From a virus, in IMG/VR virus record IMGVR_UViG_3300020172_001625, positions 1-33,821 of that record: DNA of 33,821 bases, one strand, 5' to 3'. This document shows, one piece after another, positions 1 to 17,745 of the stretch (positions are counted from its first letter, which is position 1; each line of letters opens with the position of its first letter). The position numbers and the translations under genes are program-made. The notes under the pieces were generated by a model. That model did not search any database, was not told the DNA's origin, and saw only the letters and a program-made list of their open reading frames with translations.

Positions 1-528
1 ACCAATGGCGACATCAGTGCTTCAGCAGGAATTGTACTCAGCAAATTGGCAACAAGTACGGCTGGAAATATCATTGTTTACAACTCCTCTGGTGTCCCAA
101 CGTCTGTGACAGAAACTGGTGATGTCACCATTTCCGACACAGGTGTAACAGCAATCGCTTCTGGCGTAATTGTGAACGCTGACATAAGCGACACTGCCGC
201 AATTGGCCTTGGCAAGTTGGCTGATGTTTCAACAAGCGCACAGACAGCCTCATACACACTTGTCCTAGCGGATAAGAATAAGGTTGTTGAAATGAATGTT
301 GGTTCAGCGAACACCCTCACAGTCCCATTGAACTCATCAGTAGCATTCCCTGTTGGCTCGCAAATCAACATTTTGCAAACAGGTGCTGGTCAATGCACAA
401 TTACAGCAACTGGCGGAGTTACTATCAACGCTACTCCAGGACTTAAAATGCGAACACAGTGGTCGTATGCTACGCTCATCAAACGAGCAACCGATACATG
501 GGTATTGGTCGGAGACATTTCGGCGTAA
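1..528 (+). CDS. Fibre-like virion protein, C-terminal part (5' end outside window)
   Basis: The frame is open from base 1, so the gene begins before the window; a TTG at 46 is only an internal codon. The visible part has two fibre-type repeats containing DIS..A.I.L.KLA (NGDISASAGIVLSKLA and NADISDTAAIGLGKLA), a pattern common in phage tail-fibre shafts. It then has a beta-rich terminal domain of about 90 residues ending in TWVLVGDISA. That terminal domain is clearly related to the protein at 5235-5597: both share an INILQTG/VDILQTG block, YATLIK/AATLIK and TWVLxG near the end. The next gene starts three bases after the stop. Likely role: tail fibre or other virion surface protein. The exact virion position is unknown. 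Confidence 0.7.
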   Translation, partial: TNGDISASAGIVLSKLATSTAGNIIVYNSSGVPTSVTETGDVTISDTGVTAIASGVIVNADISDTAAIGLGKLADVSTSAQTASYTLVLADKNKVVEMNVGSANTLTVPLNSSVAFPVGSQINILQTGAGQCTITATGGVTINATPGLKMRTQWSYATLIKRATDTWVLVGDISA

Positions 529-531
529 CTT

Positions 532-1110
532 ATGGCAACAAAAGATTCTGGTGGTAAAAAGCCAACTAAACCAGTTATTGGTACACCTAACAGGCTGAAC
601 AACGTAACCAGTGACTCAAACTCACAACAAGTACAAGTATTATTTACGCATGCGTATACGGGCAAGGGTACGGTAACCTACACCGCAACATCTTCACCTG
701 GTAGTAGGACTGGGACTTCCTCATCATCTCCTGTTACCGTTTCTGGTTTAACTTCTAACACGGCCTATACCTTTACGGTTTCTGCAACAACAAACTATGG
801 TGTTACCGCAGATGTGTCAGATGCTTCATCTTCTGTTACGCCTCCTTATTTTCCTCCAAGTTTTTGCCCTCCATGCCAGCCGACACCGCATCCTGGTAAC
901 TGTACGTATATTGGTATTACTTGTGACGGGCAAGTAAGTTACCAGTACTATGATTGTGGTGGATGTCAAACATGTGCTGGAACTGGTGGGTATAACGGAG
1001 CGTATAGAGATGGGCAGTGTGGTTACGTAGCACCACCATCGTTTGGTCCATCATTCCCACCACCTTTTGGACCTTCATTTGGACCATCGTTTGGGCCTGC
1101 ATTTAAATAA
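532..1110 (+). CDS. Fibronectin-III, Cys-rich, Pro/Gly-tail adhesin-like virion protein
   Basis: 192 residues in three parts. Residues about 12-103 read as one fibronectin type III domain (VTVSGLTSNTAYTFTVSATT is typical of the F-G strand end). Residues 112-163 contain eight cysteines, including CPPC at 112-115, and many Gly/Tyr, suggesting a small disulfide- or metal-stabilised knob. Residues 168-192 are a Pro/Gly/Phe/Ser tail built on a GPSF repeat. The start is ATG three bases after the previous stop, so the two genes are probably cotranslated. FN3 domains are common on phage surfaces. Here the domain probably carries a receptor-binding or glycan-binding tip. The gene immediately downstream is a prolyl-hydroxylase-like oxygenase, which may be relevant to the Pro-rich tail. 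Confidence 0.65.
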   Translation: MATKDSGGKKPTKPVIGTPNRLNNVTSDSNSQQVQVLFTHAYTGKGTVTYTATSSPGSRTGTSSSSPVTVSGLTSNTAYTFTVSATTNYGVTADVSDASSSVTPPYFPPSFCPPCQPTPHPGNCTYIGITCDGQVSYQYYDCGGCQTCAGTGGYNGAYRDGQCGYVAPPSFGPSFPPPFGPSFGPSFGPAFK

Positions 1111-1140
1111 TAACAATAAGTTAACAATAAGAGGTATTAC

Positions 1141-1803
1141 ATGGACATTACGTATGAGTATATTTCAGACGTTAAATTAGGAATTGTTGTATACCGTAAT
1201 GTGTTGCCTACTTCTTTAAGACTTATTGAACGGCTTGAAGAAACTATAGGTGAAAGCACAACGCATACATATATGTGGAAAGAAGCACTTGTTGGTGACT
1301 ACCAATCTATGCCTGAATACCGAAACTGTTTTGATTGCAAAATAGATGAAGTTAGGGCAAAAAATGCTCCACCCCAATACTCTGAAATATATAATATTTG
1401 GAAAGACACAACCGACCCACTATTAGTTTGTCTTAGACATTACGAATCTCTTGTCAATGTTAAGACTGATTATATGGAAGCAATTAACTATGTTAAGTAC
1501 GGGGTTGGTCAACACTTTCAGACTCATGCAGATCACGGGTTTTCTTATATTTGTACAGTTTCCTCAGTATTATACTTAAATGATGATTACGAAGGCGGTG
1601 AGTTGGACTTTCCAAGGTTTGGTTTAAAGTTTAAAGCAACGGCTGGTGACATTGTTTTTTTTCCATCGTCATTTTTATTTCAACATGCTTCTCTCCCAGT
1701 TACTAGTGGGGTGAAATATTCTGCCGTTACTATGTTTGATTACAACGATAGGCACCACACATGCTCAAATATAAGCACAGAAAACTACAATGCCAAACCT
1801 TAA
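1141..1803 (+). CDS. Prolyl 4-hydroxylase-like 2OG-Fe(II) oxygenase
   Basis: 220 residues. The C-terminal half is a double-stranded beta-helix oxygenase domain. The iron ligands fit H129-x-D131 (in FQTHADHG) and H182 (in FQHASLP), and K192 sits where the 2-oxoglutarate-binding basic residue is expected. YLNDDYEGGELDFP at about 145-158 is the conserved strand of the P4H-type family. Such enzymes hydroxylate a protein or small-molecule side chain using O2 and 2-oxoglutarate in the cytosol. The start has an AAGAGG-type ribosome site. The next gene overlaps it by 14 bases, so the two are coupled. The substrate is unknown; a proline in a virion protein is a reasonable guess. Phages of aquatic bacteria often carry this family. 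Confidence 0.85.
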   Translation: MDITYEYISDVKLGIVVYRNVLPTSLRLIERLEETIGESTTHTYMWKEALVGDYQSMPEYRNCFDCKIDEVRAKNAPPQYSEIYNIWKDTTDPLLVCLRHYESLVNVKTDYMEAINYVKYGVGQHFQTHADHGFSYICTVSSVLYLNDDYEGGELDFPRFGLKFKATAGDIVFFPSSFLFQHASLPVTSGVKYSAVTMFDYNDRHHTCSNISTENYNAKP

Positions 1804-2497
1804 GTTTTTAAAAGTTTCAAACAATTCACCTGAAATAAGGCAATCACGCTTAAAAAGGGATTGGATGGATAGTACCTATAATAAGCATGCATACCAATGT
1901 CTACCCGTTACAACAGCCAATGTTTTAGGGTGGGAGTTTGTTTTACAGGAAGATGTTGTTGTACAACTTGATGAACCAAACTCAATGGCAAGGATTATCT
2001 CTGGGGAAACAACAAAAAATGGAAGAGAGCAGGCACGTGCATCAATCATAGATATGGTCACTTTTCATCTAGATTGGGCTATTGAAACTGATGAAAATTA
2101 CAGCACGTGGATTACGGGGTCACCAAACTACTTTCATCCAGATGCTGACCCACTCTCAGCATCAATCCCTAGTTTCTGGTGGCCTGACCCAGTTGACATG
2201 AGTTGGCATATTCGCACAATTGGAAAACCAGTGACCTTTTATGCTGGAGAACCCTTCTGTTTCTTGACTATCTACGACAATACCATTTTAGAAAATGTGA
2301 CAGTTTCAACAGGAAACTGGGGAGATGATAAAGAAAAGGTTCGTCAACGAATGCGGTACACGGAATCAAAACAAAAAAACAGCGTTGAAAATCCTTGGAC
2401 CTGGGTTAAGGGTATAAAAACAGGAATTGACGTAGACGGTAAGCAGATTGGACCAGCGACTAAAGGCTTACCCAGATTAGACACCCCAGTAGTGTAA
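1790..2497 (+). CDS. DUF6065-like protein
   Basis: 235 residues, overlapping the oxygenase gene by 14 bases. The N-terminal pattern of a WMD motif near residue 25, then AYQCLPVTTANVLGWEF at about 34-50, matches my memory of DUF6065, an uncharacterised family of about this length found in bacteria and phages and often near 2OG-Fe(II) oxygenases. The middle is Trp-rich, with SFWWPDPVDMSWHIRT around 126-141, and the C-terminus is basic. No catalytic motif is evident to me. Tight coupling to the hydroxylase-like gene suggests the two act on the same substrate or process, but that is inference. Confidence 0.65.
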   Translation: MPNLKFLKVSNNSPEIRQSRLKRDWMDSTYNKHAYQCLPVTTANVLGWEFVLQEDVVVQLDEPNSMARIISGETTKNGREQARASIIDMVTFHLDWAIETDENYSTWITGSPNYFHPDADPLSASIPSFWWPDPVDMSWHIRTIGKPVTFYAGEPFCFLTIYDNTILENVTVSTGNWGDDKEKVRQRMRYTESKQKNSVENPWTWVKGIKTGIDVDGKQIGPATKGLPRLDTPVV

Positions 2498-2506
2498 ACT
2501 ACACTA
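2490..2506. promoter_or_regulatory. Short inverted repeat overlapping a stop codon
   Basis: A perfect 7-base inverted repeat, TAGTGTA and TACACTA separated by AAC, spans the stop codon of the DUF6065-like gene. It is followed by an AT-rich ACTATATAC stretch (TATATA at 2513-2518) before the AAAGGA ribosome site of the next gene. It could be an operator, a weak terminator hairpin or an mRNA processing site. No T-tract follows, so an intrinsic terminator is unlikely. Confidence 0.35.
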
Positions 2507-2532
2507 GTTAACTATATACAAAGGATAACATT

Positions 2533-2745
2533 ATGGCCCTTTCACCAGAGCAAATGCTTAAAGCAAAAATTGAAGCAACTTCACACTTGGAGTACTCCAT
2601 CAGCGTATTGGCTGCTGCATTGGGTGTTGATATATCTACTATTGAATACCCTTACGAACATGATTTTTCTGAAACTGACATCATGTTTAAATCCCACGAG
2701 TTGCTGAAGAAGCACGTTTCAAACTTGGAAAAACTTAAGGCATAA
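2533..2745 (+). CDS. Small helical protein of unknown function
   Basis: 70 residues, mostly helix-forming, with no Cys and no membrane segment. The N-terminal half is neutral to hydrophobic (ISVLAAALGVD) and the C-terminus is Lys-rich (LLKKHVSNLEKLKA). An AAAGGA ribosome site lies about nine bases before the ATG. It sits in the accessory island between the DUF6065-like gene and another small gene six bases downstream. I do not recognise the family. Confidence 0.6.
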   Translation: MALSPEQMLKAKIEATSHLEYSISVLAAALGVDISTIEYPYEHDFSETDIMFKSHELLKKHVSNLEKLKA

Positions 2746-2751
2746 CCATTT

Positions 2752-2955
2752 ATGAAGCCCTTTGATACACCTTTTGCCCCAGATGCAGAAGATACTACGG
2801 GAGATGACACCGTTGCGGTTCCAGAAACCAACCTTGACGAGTTAGTTGTTCGTTACGACCCAAATTCAAAACAGTGGTTTACTCAAGACCAGGATTTGCT
2901 TTTAATTTGTTCAGCACAAATGGCTACGTATAAAGACGAAACAGAGGATATTTAA
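2752..2955 (+). CDS. Small acidic protein of unknown function
   Basis: 67 residues with a strongly acidic first half (PDAEDTTGDDT) and an acidic C-terminus (KDETEDI). No motif is recognised. It begins six bases after the previous stop and ends one base before the next ATG, so it is part of the same transcript. A highly acidic small protein in a phage could be an inhibitor or a DNA mimic, but nothing here shows that. Confidence 0.55.
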   Translation: MKPFDTPFAPDAEDTTGDDTVAVPETNLDELVVRYDPNSKQWFTQDQDLLLICSAQMATYKDETEDI

Positions 2956-2956
2956 G

Positions 2957-3289
2957 ATGCCAGTTTCATGTGAACCAGGTTCATCAGCAGTACTTTACGA
3001 TTGGGCTGAAGATTTAAACAGGCATGAGTATTGGTTTACTGTCTTTATGATGATTGTAGGATTAGACCCATCTACATTTGGAGAAACAACAATAGATGAG
3101 TACGTTGCGGCATTGCGTGAAACGTACAACTATGTATTAGTGCCTGATAACAAGTCTGAGGAAGAGACTTATAGTAACGACATGTTTTCTATCTATCCGT
3201 TTGTAAGTAAAAACTACAAATACTTTATTCATAGAATAAGGATTAGTTGGCAAGGGTTAACCCTCTGTAAGTATTTGGAGAAAGCATGA
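2957..3289 (+). CDS. Unknown protein in accessory island
   Basis: 110 residues, acidic and rich in Tyr and Trp. There is a hydrophobic stretch at about residues 26-37 (YWFTVFMMIVGL), too short and polar-flanked to be a convincing membrane helix. The end, RIRISWQGLTLCKYLEKA, is basic. It starts one base after the upstream stop and overlaps the next gene by four bases (ATGA), indicating translational coupling with the methyltransferase-like gene. No family recognised. Confidence 0.55.
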   Translation: MPVSCEPGSSAVLYDWAEDLNRHEYWFTVFMMIVGLDPSTFGETTIDEYVAALRETYNYVLVPDNKSEEETYSNDMFSIYPFVSKNYKYFIHRIRISWQGLTLCKYLEKA

Positions 3290-3999
3290 ACAAAGAAGTT
3301 GCGTATACTGCCTTAATTTCTTCTAAATTATCTTCTTTTAACGCACAAGTTTCATCAGAAGAAACACGCACAGAGTGGAATGACTTTATTGCCAAAGTAA
3401 AACAAACTACGGTAGAAGCAAACCTTGATGCTCGCTTTCTTGCTCGTGGTGTCCACCTTGAGACAAACTGGTATGACATCCCATTTACCGAGGATTTGCA
3501 TGCTATTGCTGGGGCAAATTGTTTAGTTGATTTATTGCTTATTTCAACAAAAAAACCACAGAATGTTCTTATTGTTGATGGGTTGATTAACCGACTTCCT
3601 TTATACGGGTTGTTAAAAGACTCAAATATAAACTTTGTAAACAACCAGTATTTCTTTTGGTGGGAAAAGCACCTAAAGAACACATCAGAAAATCATTCAT
3701 TTGGGTATACCGCTTACTCTATTGACGAGTTGCTTGAAATGCAAACACCAATATTTGACATGATTTTTATTTCTGGATATTCAATGTTTAATAACTTTGA
3801 AGTGCTGGCTTCCTTTTCTAACCTCTTGTTGCCAGGAGGCATGATAAGTGCTTCTTCCACAAACGGCTTTTCATCGTTATACACAGAGTTATACAAAACT
3901 CACGATATGTACCCATTACACGAAACACTTAACAATGCAGATGGACTAACTGTCCACCTTGCTAACTTCCTGGGAAGCACTTACTTTATAAAGAATTAA
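3286..3999 (+). CDS. Rossmann-like protein, possible divergent methyltransferase
   Basis: 237 residues, coupled to the previous gene by an ATGA overlap. The C-terminal two thirds have the strand pattern of a class I methyltransferase-like fold: NVLIVDG at about residue 97 (strand 1, but without the usual Gly-rich loop), FDMIFISGYSM near 154-164 (strand 4), and LLLPGGMISA near 177-186 (the typical post-strand-4 turn). The S-adenosylmethionine loop is degenerate, so activity is uncertain. Its stop overlaps the stop of the convergent - strand dioxygenase gene. Alternative: a non-catalytic Rossmann-like partner. Confidence 0.5.
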   Translation: MNKEVAYTALISSKLSSFNAQVSSEETRTEWNDFIAKVKQTTVEANLDARFLARGVHLETNWYDIPFTEDLHAIAGANCLVDLLLISTKKPQNVLIVDGLINRLPLYGLLKDSNINFVNNQYFFWWEKHLKNTSENHSFGYTAYSIDELLEMQTPIFDMIFISGYSMFNNFEVLASFSNLLLPGGMISASSTNGFSSLYTELYKTHDMYPLHETLNNADGLTVHLANFLGSTYFIKN

Positions 4000-4829
4000 T
4001 TTCCATATTTGGAAGTGTCGTATTGGTGCATCCAAAACCCGTTGAAGAAGCGTTCTGTTTCAGAAAAACCGCCTAAAACAGCATGAAACATAACCATTAA
4101 ATCAGCAATTAGTAAATCACCATCTTGCCAATGGTGTGTTTGACGAACTTGAGTGTTAGTGGTTACTTGTTCCCCAACCCACGACTCGTACCACCTATAC
4201 ATGTTAATTTCTTGGTCAGTCGGTGTTCTGCCATTAAACTGTATTAATCTACAGTTAGTGTCTGTTTCTCCATTTTGACAAAAATTCATACGCAATATTT
4301 CTTTGTTTGACAACCTATGTGTTTGTACAACGTCAAGAATTATTGGCCCTGTAGGTGCTCTAGGGTCGTCACAGGTTGGCAAGGCTGATATCTTGCATGA
4401 CCTGAGAAACTCTTTCTGTTTGTCATCCAGTAATTCAAACAGGTCCGTAGTGTCAACAAATATGGTTGCCCCAGCGTCACTATCACATATGAACTTTTCC
4501 ATGTTCCAAGTAGCCCCAATTGCTGGGTTTGGGTAACCAAAATGTTCAAGATGCCACGGAACTAGTATGTCTTGTTTTGTAGCCCATTTTCTTCTGTTGA
4601 TTGAAACAGTATGGCTTTCCTCGTAGTGCCAGAATTTCATACTGTTGAGGTTGGGGTAATAACCCAAATAATTACCGAATACCTGGGTAGCAATTAACTG
4701 CTCTTTCCTTGAAAACCTATGACCACGCAGGACTATTGCGCCAAGGTCTTTGAGAGAGTTAACGTATTTTTCACTATTTTCTAAGAACTCTTGAAAAGAA
4801 GAGTTATTAATAACCTTGAGGTGCCTCAT
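3996..4829 (-). CDS. TauD/TfdA-like 2OG-Fe(II) dioxygenase
   Basis: 277 residues, close to the usual TauD length. Iron ligands fit H93-x-E95 (in PWHLEHFG; many TauD members have HxD, and HxE also occurs) and H249 (in MVMFHAVLGG), with R260 placed to bind 2-oxoglutarate. The segment GATIFVDTTDLFELLDD at about 120-136 and HWQDGDLLIADL before the distal His are family hallmarks. Family members oxidise small molecules such as taurine, or hydroxylate amino-acid derivatives. The phage substrate is unknown. It is the only gene on this strand, its stop overlaps the convergent gene, and it has its own short upstream region shared with a divergent promoter. It therefore looks like an independently acquired cargo gene. 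Confidence 0.85.
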   Translation of the reverse strand: MRHLKVINNSSFQEFLENSEKYVNSLKDLGAIVLRGHRFSRKEQLIATQVFGNYLGYYPNLNSMKFWHYEESHTVSINRRKWATKQDILVPWHLEHFGYPNPAIGATWNMEKFICDSDAGATIFVDTTDLFELLDDKQKEFLRSCKISALPTCDDPRAPTGPIILDVVQTHRLSNKEILRMNFCQNGETDTNCRLIQFNGRTPTDQEINMYRWYESWVGEQVTTNTQVRQTHHWQDGDLLIADLMVMFHAVLGGFSETERFFNGFWMHQYDTSKYGN

Positions 4830-4835
4830 GTCTAG

Positions 4836-4841
4836 AGACTA
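4836..4841 (-). promoter_or_regulatory. Possible -10 element for a leaderless dioxygenase transcript
   Basis: Reading the - strand, TAGTCT (TANNNT form) ends six bases before the ATG of the dioxygenase gene, and no Shine-Dalgarno sequence lies between. This spacing puts the transcription start at or next to the start codon, as in actinobacterial leaderless mRNAs. No convincing -35 is seen. Confidence 0.3.
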
Positions 4842-4846
4842 CAGCA

Positions 4847-4877
4847 TTGACCCCACAGGATGCTTCCATGATAAAAT
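4847..4877 (+). promoter_or_regulatory. Sigma70-like promoter upstream of second fibre cassette
   Basis: TTGACC at 4847-4852 is followed after 17 bases by GATAAA (4870-4875); TAAAAT at 4872-4877 is an alternative with a 19-base spacer. It lies in the only divergent intergenic region of the window and points toward the fibre genes. An AAGGAG ribosome site follows at 4898-4903, five bases before the GTG start. Confidence 0.5.
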
Positions 4878-4908
4878 AGGGACCATTACAGACTTCTAAG
4901 GAGCATTC

Positions 4909-5238
4909 GTGGCCCAAGCATATAAAGTTCTTGCCCAATCAGCACCATCAGCAACTACCAATACCGACCTTCTCACCGTAGGTGCTGGAAAGTCAGTAGT
5001 GGCTTCAACGCTGTCTGTGTGTAACCGTGGTACAACGGCAGCCACCTATCGTGTGGCTGTACGCCCTGTCGGTGCAACTATTGCTAACCAGCACTACATG
5101 ATTTACGATGCCAACATCTTGGCAAAAGACACTGTCACTTTGAGTGTTGGTTTGACCTTGGCAACTACAGACGTAGTGACTGTCTATGCGTCAAGCGCCA
5201 ACCTTTCGTTCTCCTTGTTTGGGGCAGAGATTTCGTGA
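4909..5238 (+). CDS. Small beta-rich virion protein
   Basis: 109 residues, GTG start with a strong AAGGAG site. The sequence alternates Thr/Ser/Val/Ala in short beta strands (VVASTLSVCNRGTTAATYRV), reading as one all-beta sandwich domain without catalytic motifs. Similar small proteins are found with tail-fibre genes in phages of aquatic bacteria. It overlaps the next gene by four bases and opens a three-gene cassette that ends in a Cys-rich adhesin. Probable role: fibre-associated structural protein. Confidence 0.6.
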   Translation: MAQAYKVLAQSAPSATTNTDLLTVGAGKSVVASTLSVCNRGTTAATYRVAVRPVGATIANQHYMIYDANILAKDTVTLSVGLTLATTDVVTVYASSANLSFSLFGAEIS

Positions 5239-5597
5239 TTTCTCGCCTTTCTGAAAACACCGCTAGTAGAAACCTGACTGGGTTTAACTCACAGGTTGAT
5301 ACCATCACGACAGAGCGAACTGTTACCCTTGATGATCTGGGTAAGGTTTTACTCATCAACAACTCTGGTTCGTTTACAATTACTGTACCTAACGATAGTG
5401 AAGCAAACTTTGGCATTGGTGACCGTGTAGATATTTTACAAACTGGTTCATCGGCAAACGTAGTGACAGTTTCTGCTGGTAACGCCACACTTTTTGCGGA
5501 GAGCAATAAATATAAATTAAACGGTCAGTACGCAGCCGCTACTTTGATTAAGACCGCAGCCAGCACATGGGTTCTTATCGGAAACATCACGAGTTAA
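5235..5597 (+). CDS. Fibre-terminal domain protein, paralogous to the 1-528 product
   Basis: 120 residues, GTG start overlapping the previous stop. Residues about 30-120 are homologous to the last 90 residues of the protein ending at 528: shared LGKVLLINNSGS-like start, VDILQTGSSANVVTV, then AATLIKTAASTWVLIGNITS. Here the domain stands almost alone, without the long repeat shaft, suggesting a detached or duplicated fibre tip or trimerisation module. It lies directly upstream of an adhesin-like gene, just as the 1-528 gene does. Confidence 0.65.
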   Translation: MISRLSENTASRNLTGFNSQVDTITTERTVTLDDLGKVLLINNSGSFTITVPNDSEANFGIGDRVDILQTGSSANVVTVSAGNATLFAESNKYKLNGQYAAATLIKTAASTWVLIGNITS

Positions 5598-5600
5598 ACC

Positions 5601-6692
5601 ATGATTACTGGCATCATTGCCTCTACATCTGGCATTCTCCCAGCGTTTACGGATGAGTTTGTAGGCTCTAACGGCTCATCGTTGCCTTCAAAATGGGCAA
5701 ATACTAGAGGTGCTTGGAGCATTCAATCTAATAAGGCCGCTACGTACTCAGCCGCTAATACATATCCACTTACTACGTTCAATGCAAATACAAAGAACGT
5801 AAGTCTTAGGGCTAACTACGGAGAATTAGCAGGTGGATGGGGTGTTGCTTTTTGGGTACAGGACTCAGAAAACTGGTGGGCAGTTGTCTCAGAAAAAACA
5901 TTTGAATATGGATGTGGTGGTGACGTTAACAATGGGAATGGGACTTGTTATGTAACTCCGTATTCATACAACTACAACTATGACTGTAGTTACACCACAC
6001 CAGTAGTTCCTGCTAGTTGTGGACCAGACAGGTCAACAGAAATATATATGAATTCTCTTGCAGGGTGCGGTGGTTATGACGCAGGCGGATACAACTGTGC
6101 TGGTGTAGGTGGGTACTTAGCAGGAGTCAACGGTTGTTGTTATTATCAAACCTATAAAGGTCCTGCTGTTTATTATGGCTCACCTTCAGGTTTAACTTGC
6201 GAAGCACGATGCCCAGGACCATGTGGACCAGGCGGCGGTCTTGTGGGAAGCCAATGTTACGCAGGGTACACGGCCTGTCCGTATGTTAATGCATCAATTT
6301 TACAATACCATCCAGAAACAGGTGGTGTTTACGTTCCACAGACCTGTACGGGTACTGCTTCTGGTGGAGGAAACACCTACAACGCCACTACGTATTACAC
6401 CACATCAATAAAATTAATTAAAATGCAAGGTGGAGTAGCATCCCAAGTAGCAACTACAGGGTTTGCGGCAACCACTAATAATAGTGTTGGTGTTTCCTAC
6501 ATTCAAGTAGTGACCAATGATGCTGGACAAATAACTGCAACAGCACAAATGAGTAGCGGTGGGACAGTAGCCCAAATACAAACCACCCCATCTAGCCCAA
6601 CTAGGGCTACAAGACATGGAATTATTCTTAACCCTGTAGCCTCTGGGTCGCAGGCAACAACTGCAGAAAACCTAGTATACTCGCCTGCATGA
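5601..6692 (+). CDS. Jellyroll (LamG/concanavalin-like) adhesin with inserted Cys-rich domain
   Basis: 363 residues. Residues about 14-103 and 262-363 together form one LamG/concanavalin-like beta-jellyroll: WGVAFWVQDSENWWAVVSE on one side, TSIKLIKMQGG and VSYIQVVTNDAGQITATAQ on the other. Between them, residues about 104-258, is an insert with 14 cysteines and many Gly, Tyr and Pro, with motifs such as RCPGPCGPGGG. The insert is probably disulfide- or metal-stabilised and displayed as a loop. The gene starts three bases after the previous stop and ends in an ATGA overlap with a tiny zinc-ribbon gene. Probable role: receptor-binding tail protein. Confidence 0.65.
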   Translation: MITGIIASTSGILPAFTDEFVGSNGSSLPSKWANTRGAWSIQSNKAATYSAANTYPLTTFNANTKNVSLRANYGELAGGWGVAFWVQDSENWWAVVSEKTFEYGCGGDVNNGNGTCYVTPYSYNYNYDCSYTTPVVPASCGPDRSTEIYMNSLAGCGGYDAGGYNCAGVGGYLAGVNGCCYYQTYKGPAVYYGSPSGLTCEARCPGPCGPGGGLVGSQCYAGYTACPYVNASILQYHPETGGVYVPQTCTGTASGGGNTYNATTYYTTSIKLIKMQGGVASQVATTGFAATTNNSVGVSYIQVVTNDAGQITATAQMSSGGTVAQIQTTPSSPTRATRHGIILNPVASGSQATTAENLVYSPA

Positions 6693-7165: not shown

Positions 7166-7360
7166 GTGCCTAAACTACGCAAAGGATTTTGGTTTTACCT
7201 CCCTGTAGCGCTTCTGTCTTGGTTTTCACCAGTCACATCCGTCAAGGCAGATGCTCTTGGAGAATGGGCATATAGTCAATCTCAAAACTGTGGTGGGTAC
7301 ATTGAAGTTTCTGGTAGCGGTATTACCTTGCATGGTCCTGATAATCAATTAGCACCATAA
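7166..7360 (+). CDS. Secreted surface protein, N-terminal segment up to in-frame TAA
   Basis: 64 residues before a TAA. The start is a standard Sec signal peptide: basic N-terminus (MPKLRKG), hydrophobic core (FWFYLPVALLSWF) and a likely cleavage site after SVKA or KADA near residues 29-31. The mature part, GEWAYSQSQNCGGYIEV, begins a beta domain cut short by the TAA at 7358-7360. The same frame then stays open for 571 codons and continues the same domain (GSSCGGAHWVKVE follows directly). This segment is therefore probably the beginning of one larger protein rather than an independent gene. The GTG start lacks a ribosome site. Confidence 0.55.
   Translation: MPKLRKGFWFYLPVALLSWFSPVTSVKADALGEWAYSQSQNCGGYIEVSGSGITLHGPDNQLAP
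7358..7360 (+). other. In-frame TAA splitting the surface-protein gene (7166-9073)
   Basis: The TAA follows LAP and precedes GSSCGG in the same frame. Upstream lie the signal peptide and the first part of a beta domain; downstream lie the rest of that domain, a linker, repeats and a membrane anchor. No ribosome site precedes the first downstream GTG (7418). The codon may be a nonsense mutation, an assembly or sequencing error, or a readthrough site. The flanking CCA TAA GGT is not a classical readthrough context that I know. Confidence 0.75.
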
Positions 7361-7417
7361 GGTTCTTCTTGTGGCGGAGCACATTGGGTAAAAGTTGAAA
7401 CCACAATCCCTGCAGAT

Positions 7418-9073
7418 GTGGACACAATAGATTTCACTTGGTCATACCAAACCAACGATGGTTGGGTGTATGACCCACCGCAGTATGCAGTAAACGGTGC
7501 ATACACCTTGCTTACACAACAGAATAGTGCAACAGGTTCACTGTCTGTACCCGTTCAAGAGGGCGATATCTTTACTTTTCGTCAATACTCAATAGATACC
7601 TGTTGCCAGCCAGGTCACTTAACAATCAGTAATTTGTCTTTGTGGAACGGTATTTCACAAACAACGACTACGTCTTCCACGACTACAACTACTTCTTCTA
7701 CAACTACTTCTTCTACAACCACCACGTTAGCATCAACCACCACGACAACAACAACAACGACAACGACAACGACCCCAGTGACAACGACAACAACGACAAC
7801 AACGACAGAGCCACCCAACAATACGACTTCATCTACTTCTTCAACTTCCACAACAGTGCCAGAGCCAAGTACCACGACAACGGCGATGCCAATAAGCACC
7901 ACAACAACATCTATCGCCCCTGCCGTTCCCGAAGAGGTCGTAGAAGTACCGACAGGCACCACAACGACAGTAGTAGTGGAACCCACTCTAGAGGTGACGC
8001 TTCCCGAAGAAACACCAATACTAATCCCAGAAGAGATACCGACTGAGATAACAGATCAAATACCAGATGTAACATACCCAGATACTATCGTTGACACAGA
8101 CGAAACGCTACCGTTTGTCGGAGAAACTGTATCTGACACAGAATTAGATAACATTCTTGAGAACACATTTACCTCAGATGCTTCTACGGAAGAGATAACG
8201 GCTGCACTTGATGAGGTTTTGAGCGCCGACCTCTCAACAGAACAGTTTTCCACTGTAATGGATGCCGTACTTTCCGATACATCTGATACCGAGCAGGTGT
8301 CTGAAGTCTTAGTTTCTTTGCTGAGTTCTAATCTTTCAGGCGAAGAACTTACAATTGTAATGGATACCGTCTTTAGCGCAGAAGCAAGCGTTGAAGAAAT
8401 GGGCGCAATTGTTGAGAACATGCTGGATTCCGACCTTTCCTCGGCAGAACTAGAGGCGGTCTTTACGGCTGCTTTTGACGATGACCTGTCTGATGCTGAA
8501 ACTGTTGCTCTTGCAGAAGAAATCCTTAGTAGCCCACTTGATGACGAAGAATTTAACACTGTTATCAATGCCATCTTTGACGAAAAGGTGTCTGATGAAG
8601 TTTTGACACAGACCTTTGACGCTATTTTGACACCTGAAATCTCTGACAGCAAGTTTGCCGAAGTAGTGAATGTTCTTGAAAATGCCACCATTACAAACAA
8701 TCAGGTTGCTCAAGTGGTGGATTTGGTTATTTCTCAAGAAGGCGGAGTAAGTGAAGAGCAAGCCACCGAACTAGCAACGAGCGCCAAAGTGCTGGAAAGC
8801 GTTTCAGGAGAGCAAGCAACTGAAGTCTTTGATGCAATCGTGGCTTCGGATGTAACTTCAGAGGATGGTCTTGCAATTGTTGACGCTGTGCAGGATGCCC
8901 CAGAAGCCGTTAAGGAATCTTTTGAAGAAGAATTAAACATTTACGAGGGTGTCTTTGACACCTATACCGCAATTGGCTCAGTGATACCTGTTAGTGGGCG
9001 CAGGGTTATCATCGCCGTAACTACGGTATCATTTATACTGCCTGCACCAGTTGTTTCTAGTCGTAGACGATAA
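7418..9073 (+). CDS. Surface protein, main part: beta domain, Thr-rich linker, 17-residue repeats, C-terminal membrane anchor
   Basis: 551 residues from a GTG that has no ribosome site; the frame is open from 7361. In order: the remainder of a beta domain with paired cysteines (CC at 62-63) to about residue 78; a Thr/Ser-rich mucin-like linker at 82-165, with a TTTTVVV patch near 181-187; an acidic Pro-rich stretch to about 237; fifteen helical repeats of about 17 residues at 238-495; and a C-terminal hydrophobic helix at about 529-547 (VIIAVTTVSFILPAPVV) followed by SSRRR. This is the plan of an exported, membrane-anchored bacterial surface protein and is unusual for a phage. With the N-terminal signal peptide restored, it would be anchored outside the cell. 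Glycosyltransferase-like genes follow downstream. Confidence 0.7.
   Translation: MDTIDFTWSYQTNDGWVYDPPQYAVNGAYTLLTQQNSATGSLSVPVQEGDIFTFRQYSIDTCCQPGHLTISNLSLWNGISQTTTTSSTTTTTSSTTTSSTTTTLASTTTTTTTTTTTTTPVTTTTTTTTTEPPNNTTSSTSSTSTTVPEPSTTTTAMPISTTTTSIAPAVPEEVVEVPTGTTTTVVVEPTLEVTLPEETPILIPEEIPTEITDQIPDVTYPDTIVDTDETLPFVGETVSDTELDNILENTFTSDASTEEITAALDEVLSADLSTEQFSTVMDAVLSDTSDTEQVSEVLVSLLSSNLSGEELTIVMDTVFSAEASVEEMGAIVENMLDSDLSSAELEAVFTAAFDDDLSDAETVALAEEILSSPLDDEEFNTVINAIFDEKVSDEVLTQTFDAILTPEISDSKFAEVVNVLENATITNNQVAQVVDLVISQEGGVSEEQATELATSAKVLESVSGEQATEVFDAIVASDVTSEDGLAIVDAVQDAPEAVKESFEEELNIYEGVFDTYTAIGSVIPVSGRRVIIAVTTVSFILPAPVVSSRRR
7661..7978 (+). repeat. Thr/Ser-rich low-complexity tract
   Basis: Codons ACA/ACG/ACC/ACT dominate, giving runs such as acgacaacaacaac. 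It encodes a mucin-like TTTTSSTTTT linker interrupted by Pro-rich spacers. The tract is a microsatellite-like sequence likely to vary in length between isolates. The long opposite-strand Val-rich ORF is a by-product of this composition. Confidence 0.85.
8129..8902 (+). repeat. Tandem 51-base repeats encoding 17-residue helical units
   Basis: In the downstream protein numbering (from 7418), repeat starts fall at residues 238, 255, 272, 289, 306, 323, 340, 357, 374, 391, 408 and 425, an exact 17-residue period. Further copies start at 444, 462 and 479 after small insertions. The consensus is about LS-x-EE-x3-V-x-D-AVLS-x-D. The DNA copies are diverged, so the period is conserved at protein level, pointing to a structural solenoid or stalk. 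Confidence 0.85.
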
Positions 9074-9089
9074 GCCCACAAGCCCCGTA

Positions 9090-9107
9090 GAGCCTCCTAG
9101 GAGGCTC
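9090..9107. terminator. Perfect 18-base palindrome, hairpin or operator
   Basis: GAGCCTCCTAGGAGGCTC is its own reverse complement. As RNA it can fold into a 7-bp GC-rich stem with a CUAG loop. It lies 17 bases after the surface-protein stop and 45 bases before the next start. There is no T-tract, so it may be a weak terminator, an mRNA-stabilising hairpin or a protein-binding site. Short CGTAGA direct repeats flank it. Confidence 0.5.
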
Positions 9108-9152
9108 GTAGACAAGCGTAAATAGGCAAAACGAGCCTAACTAAGGAGCATT

Positions 9153-9329
9153 GTGAAAAGACTATGGAATGAAGTACATGGGCTGGTTTGGACACTGGCT
9201 GGAACAGGCATGGTTCTTATTACCCTGTCTGGACAAACCCTAACTTGGGGTGTGTGGATTACTGTGGCTGGTCTTGCTGTACACTTCCTTGCTGTTGCTG
9301 GAAAGGGTAGTGACACAGACGAAGAGTAG
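9153..9329 (+). CDS. Small two-helix membrane protein, holin-like
   Basis: 58 residues from a GTG with a strong TAAGGAG site seven bases upstream. Two hydrophobic helices are seen, at about residues 9-25 (HGLVWTLAGTGMVLITL) and 31-49 (TWGVWITVAGLAVHFLAVA), with a basic N-terminus (MKR) and an acidic C-terminus (DTDEE). This is a class II holin-like layout. However, an r1t-like holin already sits beside the endolysin elsewhere, and this gene sits beside glycosyltransferases. It could instead help a surface-modification system in the membrane. Function uncertain. Confidence 0.6.
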   Translation: MKRLWNEVHGLVWTLAGTGMVLITLSGQTLTWGVWITVAGLAVHFLAVAGKGSDTDEE

Positions 9330-9335
9330 AGGTTC

Positions 9336-10418
9336 ATGGGTAACAAAACGATTGGTTTTTTGACATACGATTGGGCGCACGGAACGAAGCCATTACAACC
9401 AAACGGTTGTGCGTGGTATCGCTGCTTTCTCCCCATGAAAGAGTTAGAGAAGTTTGGCTGGAAAGTTGGTATGGGCTTTCCACGCTGGCACGAAGACCAC
9501 GGATACGGGCTAATAATTGCTAACGACAAAGCCGTTCACGGTTGGGAAATTCTTGTATTTAAGTTAGTAATGCGTAAAGAAATTACCGACATGGTAAAAA
9601 TAGCAAAGAAAATGGGACAAAAAATCGTTGTAGATATTGACGACTTCTTTGAAGGTCTTGAACCAACTAATCGTGCTTATGCGGCTACAGACCCAAAACT
9701 TCACCCAGAAAATAATCGTGACCATTACTTCCACATGATTGACGAGGCAGACGCAGTAATTACGTCTACTCCATTTCTGTACGATTTTTACTCAAAGAAA
9801 AGAAAGAATGTGTTTCTAGTTCGCAACGGTATAGACATCAACCGTTGGACTATGCGTGTGGATAAAGCAAAGCGTCTACCTGTTGTTGGTTGGGTTGGTG
9901 CTACACCTTGGCGTTCTAGTGATTTAGAAAGCCTTAACCCACACGTTCCTAAGTTTTTAAAACAACATAACTTAACTTTTCATCATTCTGGTCACACAGA
10001 TAATGCTCCTTTTGCGTATTCACAACTTGGGCATTACCGACAGAAATCAACTATTATGCCAATGGCTCCAATTCTTGATTACCCTAGATTGTTCCCACCT
10101 ATAGACATTGGCTTAATTCCCCTAAACAATGTTGAATTTAACCATGCAAAATCTTTTATCAAAGGGCTTGAGTATGCTGCTGCTGGTGTTCCTTTCATTG
10201 CATCGTACTCACCTGAATATCAGTATCTTGCAGATGCTGGGGTTGGAAGGGTTGCTAAAAGCCCAGAGGAATGGAAATATCACTTAAAGGAATTACTTGA
10301 CCCAGGCATGCGTAAAGATGAGGTAATGGTAAACTACGAAACAGTTAAAGAAAAGTTTTCAATAGAAGTGTGTGGTATTGAATGGAACAAAGTAATGGAG
10401 AAAATCTCCGCACTATAA
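9336..10418 (+). CDS. GT-B fold glycosyltransferase
   Basis: 360 residues. An N-terminal Rossmann half is followed by an acceptor-side VVDIDDFFEGL at 98-108. The domain switch is FLVRNGIDINRW at 160-171, typical of GT4-type enzymes. The donor-binding half begins PVVGWVGATPWRSSDL at 182-197, and HAKSFIKGLEYAAAGVPFIAS at 270-290 is the usual nucleotide-sugar site. A retaining sugar transferase is likely; the acceptor is not shown. An AGAGG site precedes the ATG. The gene overlaps the next by 37 bases. With its neighbours it forms a three-gene sugar/methyl modification cassette directly after the Thr-rich surface protein, a plausible glycan acceptor. Confidence 0.8.
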   Translation: MGNKTIGFLTYDWAHGTKPLQPNGCAWYRCFLPMKELEKFGWKVGMGFPRWHEDHGYGLIIANDKAVHGWEILVFKLVMRKEITDMVKIAKKMGQKIVVDIDDFFEGLEPTNRAYAATDPKLHPENNRDHYFHMIDEADAVITSTPFLYDFYSKKRKNVFLVRNGIDINRWTMRVDKAKRLPVVGWVGATPWRSSDLESLNPHVPKFLKQHNLTFHHSGHTDNAPFAYSQLGHYRQKSTIMPMAPILDYPRLFPPIDIGLIPLNNVEFNHAKSFIKGLEYAAAGVPFIASYSPEYQYLADAGVGRVAKSPEEWKYHLKELLDPGMRKDEVMVNYETVKEKFSIEVCGIEWNKVMEKISAL

Positions 10419-11059
10419 GAACCCTAGAGTCTTTTAAAGACATTCACAAGGGAGAAACCATCTGGGTTCTTGGTTCTGGTGGGTCATTAGACTTCCTTGA
10501 CCCATCGTTTTTTGATGACAAAATATGTGTTGGTGTTAATTTTGTTGGGAAGACTTTTGGGTTGACTAATTATTTTACGTTTTCTCATTATCATTTAGAT
10601 TCCTTAGAGATGGCAGAATCGTCTAGATTTGTGTTTGCTCCCAAAAAAGAACATGGTGCAAGACAAGAATGGTCTGGCCCTATTCCAGCAAACGTAATTT
10701 TGTTTGAAACAACTACAGGAGAACCTGGATATAGTTTTGACCCATTTGGTAAAGACAACCCAACAGTTGGGTTGATGATTGGGAACTCAAGTATTCATGG
10801 GTCAATACATTTAGCAGCATATTTGGGTGCTAAACATATTGTCTTAGTGGGGGCTGATTGTGGAAAGTTAAATGGGGTTGACAGGTTTAATAACTATGTG
10901 CCAGGAGATAACCCGTGGTCTGAGTACAATACGAAACTAATAGAAGTAAAACGCTGGATACTAGAAAACTTTGGAGCAAAGGTTTACTCTTTAAATCCTT
11001 TTGTAAACTTCAACCTTGAAGGTGTTTCCTTTGATGGGGAAGTAAAAATAAACCTGTGA
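10382..11059 (+). CDS. DUF115/GT42-like Rossmann protein, possible glycosyltransferase
   Basis: 225 residues. The pattern IWVLGSGGSLDFLD at 27-40, followed by a new strand (CVGVNFVG), resembles the nucleotide-binding start of the DUF115/MptE-like and GT42 sialyltransferase-like superfamily (G.GPSL motif). HGSIHLAAYLGAKHIVLVGADCG in the middle also fits that family's second conserved block. The listed start lies 37 bases inside the glycosyltransferase gene; no later ATG leaves the G-rich motif intact, so I kept it. Likely role: transfer of a sugar or related group. Exact substrate unknown. Confidence 0.6.
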   Translation: MEQSNGENLRTIRTLESFKDIHKGETIWVLGSGGSLDFLDPSFFDDKICVGVNFVGKTFGLTNYFTFSHYHLDSLEMAESSRFVFAPKKEHGARQEWSGPIPANVILFETTTGEPGYSFDPFGKDNPTVGLMIGNSSIHGSIHLAAYLGAKHIVLVGADCGKLNGVDRFNNYVPGDNPWSEYNTKLIEVKRWILENFGAKVYSLNPFVNFNLEGVSFDGEVKINL

Positions 11060-11072
11060 TACTCTTTTTTGC

Positions 11073-11648
11073 ATGAAACTACTTAACGCAGGTTGTGGGA
11101 CACACTATGCCGAGGGTTGGGTAAATACCGATGTTTGGGAAAATGAGGAAACAAAACCAGACATTCGTGTAGAACCTGGAAAACCGTACCCATTTGATGA
11201 TGCAACCTTTGATGCAGTACTGATGAGTCATGTTCTAGAGCATATTGCATGGGCTGAAGTCCCTGCGTTCCTTCGTGATATGTCTCGTGTGGCTAAACCA
11301 GGTGCTCCAATGCTCATCGTTTGCCCAGATGTCTTTAAGACAATAAAATTATGGAGTGAAAAAAAACTCCCGTGGTGGCTAGTTGAAGCCGTACTAGAGC
11401 ACCAGCACATGAAACCAGAAGACCTAGGAGATAACCCTTGGTGGGATAACGCTCCACACCACTGGAATGCCCATGAGAAACGAATAGAAGATTTACTTGT
11501 AGGGATGGGGTTTCCAAGCATTGAAAATGTTTTTAGTCTTATCCCTAATGGCAACTCGTGGAAAGACAACCACATTACAGACTTAGTTTGGCCTGTTGTA
11601 GGTAAGGCTGAATGGCAACTCTGCCTGAGATTTAATAACAAACTATAA
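11073..11648 (+). CDS. Class I S-adenosylmethionine methyltransferase
   Basis: 191 residues. Motif I is LLNAGCGTHYAEGWVNTD at 3-20. The acidic strand-2 residue is D20, and PFDDATFDAVLMSHVLEH at 40-57 is the family's strand-4 block, followed by FLRDMSRVAKPGAPMLIVCP. This is the Methyltransf_11-type arrangement common in sugar and polysaccharide pathways. It starts 13 bases after the glycosyltransferase-like gene and lacks a clear ribosome site; GATACT at 11058-11063 with an upstream TG could be an extended -10. Probable role: methylation of a glycan or small-molecule product of the cassette. Confidence 0.8.
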   Translation: MKLLNAGCGTHYAEGWVNTDVWENEETKPDIRVEPGKPYPFDDATFDAVLMSHVLEHIAWAEVPAFLRDMSRVAKPGAPMLIVCPDVFKTIKLWSEKKLPWWLVEAVLEHQHMKPEDLGDNPWWDNAPHHWNAHEKRIEDLLVGMGFPSIENVFSLIPNGNSWKDNHITDLVWPVVGKAEWQLCLRFNNKL

Positions 11649-12991: not shown

Positions 12992-14557
12992 ATGTCGGAT
13001 TCCCTATTGGACCAAGAACAAGAGTTACTAGCCGAAGAATTAGTTGAGGAACTTGACGAAACCTCGGCTGAATTTGTTGACCAGTTAGTTACAAAACTGG
13101 TTCTCTTTACCGAGCAATTTTGCAATGTTGAATTATTTCCGTACCAGATTCCTATTGCGTACCGAATCATTGAATCCATTGTTTTAGGTGACGGTGAAGA
13201 AATAACTTTAATTGCAACTCGCCAATCTGGTAAGTCTGAAGTGCTCTCCAACGTACTTGCATCCATGATGGTTATCCTTCCAAAACTTTCAGGCATCTAT
13301 CCAACGTGGTTATCTAAGTTTGAAAAAGGTTTCTGGGTCGGAGTATTTGCCCCAACTGAAGACCAGGCAGACACCGTGTTTAGTCGTATCGTAAGTCGTT
13401 TGACTAGCGACCACGCTCTTGGTTTTCTTCTTGACCCTGAACTTGATGACAAGGCTACCTCTGGTGGTACTCGTGGTAAGGGAAAAATCATCACCATGAA
13501 GCGTTCTGGTTCAATTTGCCGTATGCAGACTTGTAACCCAAAAGCAAAGATTGAATCAAAAACTTACCACTTTGTGCTTATTGACGAGGCTCAGGAAGCC
13601 GATGAGTTTATGATTACCAAGTCAATCAAGCCGATGTTGGCGTTTAACAACGGAAGCATCATGCTTACTGGAACGGCTTCTCGTAACAAGTCCTATTTCT
13701 ACAAGATGATTCAATATAACAAACGGCGTATTAACCAAAGTAGAAAAGTAATACGAGACTGCCATTTTGAGTACGACTACAAAGTTGCTTCTAAGTATAA
13801 CGCTAACTACGGGAAATTTATTGCCAAAGAAAAACTACGCATTGGTGAAGACTCTGACGAATTCCAGATGTCGTATTGCAACCGATGGATGCTGGAAAAG
13901 GGAATGTTTGTTACTGAAGAACGAATGGAAAGACTCTACGACCCATCTATGCCGTTAGTAAAACAGTGGTGGCGTACCCCTGTAGTAGTGGGGATTGACG
14001 TTGCTCGGTCTAACGACTCAACGGTAGTAACCGTCTGCTGGGTGGACTGGGACCATCCAGACCCCTTTGGTTTCTACGAACACCGCATTCTTAACTGGCT
14101 AGAAATCAACGACCAAGAGTGGGAACAACAGTATTTCCAAATCATTGACTTCTTACGAAACTACGATGTACTTCGCATTGGCGTGGACTCCCAAGGTGTC
14201 GGTGGTGCTGTAGCAGAACGACTTAAGATTTTGCTGCCAAACATAGAAGTAATTGCAATGACTTCTGACTCTAAAAATCAAAACCAGCGTTGGGTACACC
14301 TTACAGAATTGATTCAACGTGAGCAATTAGTAATTCCAGGACATTCTAAGGCTCGCCGTACCCGTTCATGGAAGCGCTTTAATCAACAAATGAATGACCT
14401 TGAAAAGGTCTATCGTGGTCCATATATGCTGGCTGAAGCCCCTAATGAGAAAGGCGCATTTGATGACTACCCAGACTCATTGGCTCTTGCCTGTGCCATG
14501 TCTGTGTATGATGCTATGCCTACTATTCAAGTCGGAGAAAATCCCTTTTTCAATTAG
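12992..14557 (+). CDS. terL: Terminase large subunit
   Basis: 521 residues, normal for the family. ATPase: Walker A-like ATRQSGKS at 75-82, Walker B FVLIDEAQ at 194-201, coupling motif LTGTAS at 225-230. RNase H-like nuclease: acidic residues D336 (VVGIDVARS), D399 (RIGVDSQGVGG) and D491/D492 or D495 (FDDYPDSLALA). It packages DNA into proheads, using ATP, and cuts concatemers. The first 30 residues are strongly acidic. It starts the main virion block. No ribosome site is strong; TAGGCT at 12978-12983 lies eight bases before the ATG. Confidence 0.95.
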   Translation: MSDSLLDQEQELLAEELVEELDETSAEFVDQLVTKLVLFTEQFCNVELFPYQIPIAYRIIESIVLGDGEEITLIATRQSGKSEVLSNVLASMMVILPKLSGIYPTWLSKFEKGFWVGVFAPTEDQADTVFSRIVSRLTSDHALGFLLDPELDDKATSGGTRGKGKIITMKRSGSICRMQTCNPKAKIESKTYHFVLIDEAQEADEFMITKSIKPMLAFNNGSIMLTGTASRNKSYFYKMIQYNKRRINQSRKVIRDCHFEYDYKVASKYNANYGKFIAKEKLRIGEDSDEFQMSYCNRWMLEKGMFVTEERMERLYDPSMPLVKQWWRTPVVVGIDVARSNDSTVVTVCWVDWDHPDPFGFYEHRILNWLEINDQEWEQQYFQIIDFLRNYDVLRIGVDSQGVGGAVAERLKILLPNIEVIAMTSDSKNQNQRWVHLTELIQREQLVIPGHSKARRTRSWKRFNQQMNDLEKVYRGPYMLAEAPNEKGAFDDYPDSLALACAMSVYDAMPTIQVGENPFFN

Positions 14558-16709: not shown

Positions 16710-16928
16710 ATGTCGGATGCATGGGCGATTGTCATTGCGGCTGCTATACCCGTAGTCGGAACTGGAGTCGGTTTTCTTATAAGGGAATTCAAAAACTTCA
16801 GAGTAGAAAATCGTCAAGATCACGCAAATGTAATGACCGAACTCCGCAAAGTTCGTAATGGTATTGAATCAGTGGCTGGTCGTTTAAACACACACATTGA
16901 CTGGCACATGGATAAGGAAAAGAAATGA
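16710..16928 (+). CDS. Membrane-anchored coiled-coil protein of lysis cassette
   Basis: 72 residues: an N-terminal membrane helix at about 5-23 (WAIVIAAAIPVVGTGVGFL), then a charged coiled coil (NVMTELRKVRNGIESVAGRLNTH) ending DKEKK. This layout resembles small holin-associated or DUF2746-like proteins of actinophages. It overlaps the downstream holin-like gene by ATGA, so it is coupled to lysis. It may modulate holin timing or act as a pinholin-like or anchor protein. Confidence 0.6.
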   Translation: MSDAWAIVIAAAIPVVGTGVGFLIREFKNFRVENRQDHANVMTELRKVRNGIESVAGRLNTHIDWHMDKEKK

Positions 16929-17188
16929 ATAAGAATATGCTCTTAAATGTTGTCCTTCGTATCCTTGCCACCTTTGCTGCATCTGGGTTAGGTGTGATTG
17001 GGGCTGGAGCAATCGCTGGAGTGCCTTTGTGGAAAGCCTGTTTTATGGCAGGAATTGCTGGAGTTGCATTTGTTGTAGAAGGTTTATCAAGGAATTTCTT
17101 GGATGATGGTAAACTTACACTTGCAGAAATTAACGATGTTTTTAATAAAGTAGATGGAAAAGAAACAACAGTTAAGGATGACAAATGA
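16925..17188 (+). CDS. r1t-like holin
   Basis: 87 residues with two hydrophobic helices, at about 7-34 (LNVVLRILATFAASGLGVIGAGAIAGVP) and 38-53 (CFMAGIAGVAFVVEGL), and a charged C-terminus. A basic short N-terminus and a Gly-rich turn fit the r1t-type holin family of actinophages. It sits between a membrane/coiled-coil gene and the M15 endolysin, linked to both by four-base overlaps. It should form lesions in the cytoplasmic membrane that release the endolysin. Confidence 0.75.
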   Translation: MNKNMLLNVVLRILATFAASGLGVIGAGAIAGVPLWKACFMAGIAGVAFVVEGLSRNFLDDGKLTLAEINDVFNKVDGKETTVKDDK

Positions 17189-17745
17189 GTAAAAAAGTTG
17201 CTTGGGATTATGTAGTGCCTGTAGTGTTGCCGCCAAACCTTAAAGGCATTGAACCTGGAAAACTGCCTGAAGAAATGCTTGTCAAAATTGCAACAGGTGG
17301 AAAACTTCACCGCAGAGCCGCAGACGCATGGAATGCAATGGTCGCAAAAGCCAAAGCAGATGGAATTGAACTTAAACCCACTTCCTCTGGCGACCTATAT
17401 CGCACTTACGAGAGCCAACTGGCTGGTTTTAAGCAGCGCTACCAACTTGAGCCAATCCCAGGTCAAAGCACCAAAACATTTGAAGGCAAGACTTGGTATC
17501 TGAAAAAGGGTATGGCAATGTTGGCGACACCTGGTAAGTCCATGCATAATCTTGGGTTGGCAATTGATATTGCTAATGCGTCAGAACCAAAGCGCTTGAA
17601 CTGGCTAATTGCCAATATAAAAGATTTTGGATTTAGTTGGGAAGTTGTTCCAAGCGAGCCGTGGCATATTCGGCTAGTCACTGGGCCTTTTCCAACACCT
17701 GCTGTTGTGGCATACGTGCTACAGCAACAACAACAGCCTGCTTGA
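17185..17745 (+). CDS. M15-family peptidoglycan endopeptidase (endolysin)
   Basis: 186 residues, one compact M15/VanY-like domain. Zinc ligands: H121 and D128 in KSMHNLGLAIDI, and H161 in SEPWHIR; E158 is the catalytic acid/base. SGDLYRTYESQ at 68-78 is the substrate-side motif. It has no signal peptide, so it needs the holin next door. It likely cuts stem-peptide or cross-bridge bonds at cell lysis. The C-terminus ends in a short Gln run. A related M15 domain occurs in the tape-measure-like protein at 30829-33597. Confidence 0.85.
   Translation: MSKKVAWDYVVPVVLPPNLKGIEPGKLPEEMLVKIATGGKLHRRAADAWNAMVAKAKADGIELKPTSSGDLYRTYESQLAGFKQRYQLEPIPGQSTKTFEGKTWYLKKGMAMLATPGKSMHNLGLAIDIANASEPKRLNWLIANIKDFGFSWEVVPSEPWHIRLVTGPFPTPAVVAYVLQQQQQPA

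Follow-up and report, generated by a model that had tools for sequence, protein, structure and literature searches.

Comparison of related phage loci by computation separates a surface-protein gene and its small partner from a set of glycan-modifying genes with which they had been read as one system. The genes lie between positions 7166 and 11648 of a 33,821-nucleotide stretch of viral DNA (IMG/VR record IMGVR_UViG_3300020172_001625; 33.8 kb, 43.5% GC), hereafter the window, which is part of the genome of a contractile-tailed phage. Five genes are present, all on the + strand, for a surface protein, a small membrane protein with two transmembrane helices (2-TM protein), a glycosyltransferase (GT), a DUF115-like protein and a methyltransferase. 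They are real genes and not chance reading frames, since they are conserved across dozens of phages (loci are designated L with a number). We put at about even the chance that the surface gene specifies a late, membrane-anchored, glycan-binding protein on the surface of the infected actinobacterial cell, standing beside an independent glycan-modifying cassette.

The surface protein and the 2-TM protein form one unit

The surface open reading frame (ORF) begins with a signal peptide, is rich in Thr over one stretch and has a hydrophobic segment at its C-terminal end (residues 614-630; Kyte-Doolittle hydropathy 2.31), and in these respects agrees with the secreted, membrane-anchored, Thr-rich protein described in an earlier note on this DNA. 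The cleavage site is of the AxA type (VKADA) and the window protein has no LxxC lipobox. No LPXTG-like motif was found ahead of the C-terminal helix, the C-terminus being VIPVSGRRVIIAVTTVSFILPAPVVSSRRR. The window copy carries the mark of the family, an acidic helical region ending FDxY...RR and followed by a transmembrane (TM) helix.

As assembled, the surface gene of the window is interrupted. The frame has one internal stop, a TAA at codon 65, where L003 and L010 read CAA; the GTG at 7418 is an in-frame restart, and the restart form lacks the signal peptide. The sole near-identical contig, L002, begins downstream of the TAA site, and a real nonsense mutation is therefore indistinguishable from a variant that arose in sequencing, in assembly or within the population. 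Many relatives carry intact forms of the gene, and the conclusions on the family are based on these and not on the window copy.

In all loci of the split form that cover the stretch, the surface gene is followed by a two-helix gene of 54-58 amino acids, with or without a GT. The surface protein of L013 and of most of 80 distant loci is a longer chain that closes with three helices; the second and third of these match the small protein. A hidden Markov model built from the fused tails alone recovered every small protein that is encoded separately, with scores of 20-30 bits, the window protein being the weakest at 20.1. Hydropathy confirmed the two helices that the earlier note had assigned to the 58-aa ORF, and the hairpin of TM2 and TM3 with TLSG, another mark of the family, is found here as an adjacent gene. 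Because the two proteins are fused in relatives, the 2-TM protein is functionally tied to the surface protein, and the data support a conserved, phage-specific unit. The predicted topology, which agrees with hydropathy, would place the N-terminal part outside, followed by one helix into the membrane and then the hairpin with its TLSG turn.

Between the two genes of the window lies a perfect 18-nt palindrome, GAGCCTCCTAGGAGGCTC, which occurs once in the window and has variants in split-form relatives. It gave no match in Rfam, and no run of T follows it.

Heads are exchanged on a constant anchor

The full-length members carry about ten classes of N-terminal head. Matches above Pfam cut-offs were an L-type lectin in L046 (1e-40), a C-type lectin in L013, a SUEL galactose/rhamnose lectin with LCCL in L126 and PA14 in four proteins (L037, L038, L103 and L122), with fn3 in L044. 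From their sequences, the heads look interchangeable and mostly glycan-binding. A Pfam scan of the window-class head gave no match. For the head of the intact L003 homologue, AlphaFold gave a beta sandwich (pLDDT 83.9) whose nearest PDB entries include the carbohydrate-binding modules CBM35, CBM36, CBM6 and CBM16, and this model is a suggestion that the window-class head may bind glycans. Good matches of this head class in the viral library were uncharacterised proteins of uncultured phages, and weakly similar fibre and tail proteins were many.

Two loci show head swapping in action. L005 and L006 are 100% identical in the GT and PhyH genes and 96-99.6% and 79% identical in the fibres, and their heads are unrelated. 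The swappable lectin and PA14 heads, which the earlier note had overlooked, are the likely functional end of the protein. A stalk that bears lectin or PA14 domains is typical of adhesins, and the heads vary independently of the fibres. The head might therefore act in trans, as a lectin adhesin by which the infected cell binds neighbours or particles, aiding the spread of progeny or altering grazing. We consider this doubtful, since plankton is very dilute and contact between cells is rare.

The anchor family is essentially viral and its hosts are actinobacteria

A search with the anchor alignment matched 364 viral contigs, of which the best 80 were retained. By contrast, a scan of 84,980 species of bacteria and archaea with exact peptide patterns, which distant host homologues may escape, matched one contig. 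This sole match in the genome collection, L048 (JAURLY010000091.1), is filed under a metagenome-assembled genome of the Gammaproteobacteria and has the order surface-VanY-MPE-NTN; because this is a phage gene order, L048 is probably a mis-binned phage. In 50,697 GenBank phage records a member was detected only in DSL-LC01, a phage from a Dishui Lake metagenome. The anchor family is essentially viral, and a host-derived gene was rejected on the ground that the pattern-limited scan gave just one probable phage contig.

WhiB is encoded in 21 of 25 surface-protein records, and the hosts are therefore actinobacteria. A tyrosine integrase was found in 0 of these 25, many of the records being fragments, so that absences weigh less; on this count a conversion gene of temperate phages was rejected. 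DSL-LC01 points the other way: it carries a recombinase, and BACPHLIP classes it as temperate (PMC10611076).

The glycosyltransferase belongs to a separate module

The assignment of the third gene as a GT-B glycosyltransferase held up well. Its model has a GT-B double Rossmann fold (pLDDT 91.5), and its best PDB neighbours are the GT4-type enzymes MshA, GlgM, BshA and PimA (MshA, E 1.8e-13, TM score 0.68). The protein matched the glycosyltransferase family phrog_7162 at 5.6e-37; the Pfam score for Glyco_trans_1_4, 17.2 bits, was under the cut-off of 27, and no sequence relatives were found in PDB for the GT or the DUF115-like protein. In L013, L107 and L128 the GT is in tandem duplicate, directly ahead of the surface gene.

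The earlier note had read the five genes as one candidate module, in which two GTs and a methyltransferase could O-glycosylate the Thr stalk and so put a glycan coat on the infected cell. The genes are indeed adjacent and the stalk is rich in Thr. Glycan cassettes stand upstream, downstream or divergent beside the surface gene on several backbones, and 18 of the 25 surface-protein records contain the GT. Against this, the two parts occur separately. A profile search with the GT gave 298 viral loci; 43 of the 77 examined had no surface anchor within the fetched flanks, and among 20 whole GT records 18 lacked the surface protein, one of which (L213) ends in the N-terminus of a surface gene. In L196, whose terminase (TerL) is 86% identical, a fibre gene, the GT, g11656 and the terminase follow in the same order with no surface or 2-TM gene. 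Co-occurrence in relatives, the check that the note itself had named, thus gave the result that it held to speak against its proposal, the GT without the surface protein. Conversely, seven of the 25 records with the surface protein lack such a GT, among them records of 130-145 kb, and L033 and L035 carry the surface pair at the window's locus without one. The GT and the surface protein are independent, the separation being seen both ways, though the records are fragments. Thr content is equal with and without a GT nearby, and a stalk that tracks the presence of the GT was likewise rejected; neither this nor the GTs found apart fits enzymes that serve the stalk. On the separate occurrence of GT and surface protein we rejected the single five-gene module, which is now an unlikely reading.

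The genes that follow the GT also differ from locus to locus. The first scored 30.1 bits against PF01973 (MptE-like/DUF115; gathering score 34.6) and 6e-4 against a phage sialyltransferase PHROG, so that the DUF115/GT42-like protein of the earlier note is plausible as a DUF115/MptE-like protein and no firmer than that; the second scored above the Pfam cut-off for Methyltransf_11 and is, by its sequence, the methyltransferase that the note had named. Among the fetched loci DUF115 occurs in just three, the window, L002 (the same sequence) and L213, where it stands together with PhyH and a methyltransferase. Cassettes consist of DUF115 and methyltransferase (window and L002), PhyH and methyltransferase, or a GT-A-like gene, methyltransferase and epimerase. 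They lie behind the GT, upstream of the surface gene or in divergent orientation to that gene. The stretch following the GT is occupied by mobile cassettes that are swapped. Between divergent phage backbones the epimerase gene keeps 96-98% identity (L003:8344-9210, L055:2592-3464 and L059:188-1060), which suggests recent transfer of the cassette. Because cassettes are swapped and DUF115 is confined to the window sequence and L213, the exact gene set of the note is not a recurring system; DUF115 with methyltransferase is nearly unique to the window.

In those of the examined loci that lack the surface protein, the GT mostly adjoins fibre-like genes, and its distant relatives are found in Arthrobacter and Streptomyces phages. 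In mycobacteriophages, whose virion glycosylation genes include Che8 gp110 and Corndog gp38, phage GTs glycosylate the capsid and tail tube (PMC12363180). These points favour a cassette that decorates virion proteins (fibres or capsid), as in Che8 and Corndog, with no direct tie to the surface protein; host glycans are equally possible as acceptor, and we rate virion decoration a serious possibility, somewhat short of even. The virion fibres are a good candidate acceptor, because the GT keeps company with fibre genes and because glycosylation of virion proteins is known in actinobacteriophages (PMC12363180). The likeness to Che8 gp110 and Corndog gp38 is one of description: all are phage-encoded GTs of actinobacteriophages, and the window-type cassettes differ in their extra swappable PhyH, DUF115 and epimerase genes. 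We read the GT4-like enzyme and the swappable genes after it as an independent cassette for glycan decoration, which moves together with tail-fibre genes and lies beside the surface gene; candidate acceptors are fibres, host glycans or the stalk.

Layout of the window

From left to right the window holds fibre-like genes (46-6692), the five genes discussed here, the terminase (12992-14557), holin-like and VanY genes (16710-17745) and the structural genes for portal, capsid, sheath, tube and tape measure, whose names were read from the translations without a library scan. Nearly all genes lie on the + strand. The surface gene shares its strand with the structural genes, which suggests late expression. 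No RNA family was matched in the window. Coordinates of the features are listed in Table 1.

Table 1. Features of the surface-protein unit and the adjoining glycan-modifying genes (window coordinates)
Feature	Position	Strand	Remarks
Surface protein ORF, GTG start: signal peptide, head, Thr stalk, acidic helical repeats, C-terminal TM anchor	7166..9073	+	In-frame TAA; relatives intact
In-frame TAA, codon 65	7358..7360	+	CAA in L003 and L010
Signal peptide KLRKGFWFYLPVALLSWFSPVTSVKADA	7166..7255	+	Predicted from sequence and from hydropathy of the near-identical L003 peptide
N-terminal head, predicted beta-sandwich	7250..7660	+	CBM35/36/6/16-like by weak structural similarity; AlphaFold of L003 homologue
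Thr-rich mucin-like stalk	7661..7903	+	
Acidic linker and helical repeats	7904..9004	+	Most conserved part of the family, phage-only
C-terminal hydrophobic anchor	9005..9055	+	Followed by SSRRR
Palindrome GAGCCTCCTAGGAGGCTC, 18 nt	9090..9107	+	Between surface gene and 2-TM gene
58-aa two-helix membrane protein	9153..9329	+	Homologous to TM2-TM3 of fused anchors; TLSG in loop
GT-B, GT4-like glycosyltransferase (phrog_7162)	9336..10418	+	Part of fibre-linked module
DUF115/MptE-like (GT42-like?) protein	10382..11059	+	Sub-threshold
SAM methyltransferase (Methyltransf_11)	11073..11648	+	Swappable cassette member

In the fused group the VanY gene usually comes next after the surface gene. This order, the small TM partner and the late-gene location would fit a lysis-module protein that, with its holin-like 2-TM partner, helps the neighbouring VanY-type endolysin to open or loosen the envelope. 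However, some 8 kb separate the window copy from VanY (17185), a gene with a holin-like neighbour of its own, and interchangeable lectin heads are ill-suited to a conserved lysis function; we consider this role improbable.

The VanY/M15 gene (17185-17745), which adjoins holin-like genes, has a tape measure family as its top PHROG match (4e-37), and the tape measure protein (30829-33597) contains a similar VanY-like stretch, as judged by eye. At 1790-2497 the window encodes a DUF6065 family protein (E 4e-35) adjoining 2OG-oxygenase-like genes; in relatives several 2OG-like genes are grouped near the fibre genes.

Proposed role of the surface protein

We propose that the signal peptide would direct Sec export, so that an exchangeable and mostly glycan-binding head would stand outside the cell on the Thr-rich stalk. 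The acidic helical region and a three-helix anchor would hold the head on the actinobacterial membrane during lytic infection, the anchor being made up of one helix here plus two from the 58-aa protein, and of a single chain in other phages. The head could then bind the infected cell's own glycans and occupy or mask them, which would keep other phages or released progeny from attaching to the doomed cell and its remains. We hold this last step tentatively, although among the uses of the head masking seems to us the most likely, adhesion in trans the next and a role in lysis less likely. With equally limited confidence, the exchangeable lectin, PA14 and CBM heads on a dedicated three-helix anchor may be seen as a virus-specific display that is common in freshwater actinophages and controls who binds the dying cell, much as enveloped viruses display surface glycoproteins.

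Several observations weigh against this proposal. The similarity of the window-class head to the CBM entries is weak (TM score about 0.34-0.51), and some split forms (L028) have only a short hydrophobic stretch at the C-terminus. Head sequences gave 0 matches to the other ORFs of the compared loci, tail fibres included, and heads vary while fibres stay near constant, as in L005 and L006. The pattern-based genome scan and the fragmentary records count here as well. Because the heads match no fibre domain and change with the fibres near constant, the data do not point to masking of the receptor that the phage itself uses, and a head shared with the tail fibres was rejected.

Proteins for superinfection exclusion and glycosyltransferases are both familiar from phages. 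Llp of phage T5 prevents adsorption to infected cells and to post-lysis fragments (PMC9586334). Like Llp-type exclusion proteins, the surface family is phage-encoded and predicted to be exported and membrane-attached. However, Llp is a small early lipoprotein that acts on FhuA from the periplasm, whereas the surface proteins are of 500-1500 aa, stalked and lectin-headed, with TM helices and no lipobox. LPXTG/sortase adhesins share the signal peptide, head, repeat or stalk, C-terminal hydrophobic segment and basic tail; the surface family lacks an LPXTG-like motif, and its fused forms continue through two more helices. The 'Ca. Nanopelagicales' (acI) phages E7 and F5 are freshwater actinophages with whiB and a glycosyltransferase, and a superinfection block has been proposed as one role of the GT in such phages (PMC10202952); a text search of that paper turned up no lectin. 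The Actinomycetia phage DSL-LC01 (OQ999401) encodes a 944-aa fused member of the surface family (WJZ48438), annotated as hypothetical, and its record has no relative of the window GT. In the literature searched, outside which most subscription journals lie, we found no account of a surface family with lectin heads and a three-helix anchor.

Few lake bacteria are as abundant as the freshwater actinobacteria, and the role of most genes in their phages is not known. The surface family is here set apart from the neighbouring GT cassettes, which invite the wrong story of one module. A virus-only, lectin-headed family in hundreds of contigs, with heads swapped on fixed anchors, suggests strong selection on the exterior of the infected cell, and gives the question of how lytic phages deal with the surface of their hosts a definite target that can be tested.

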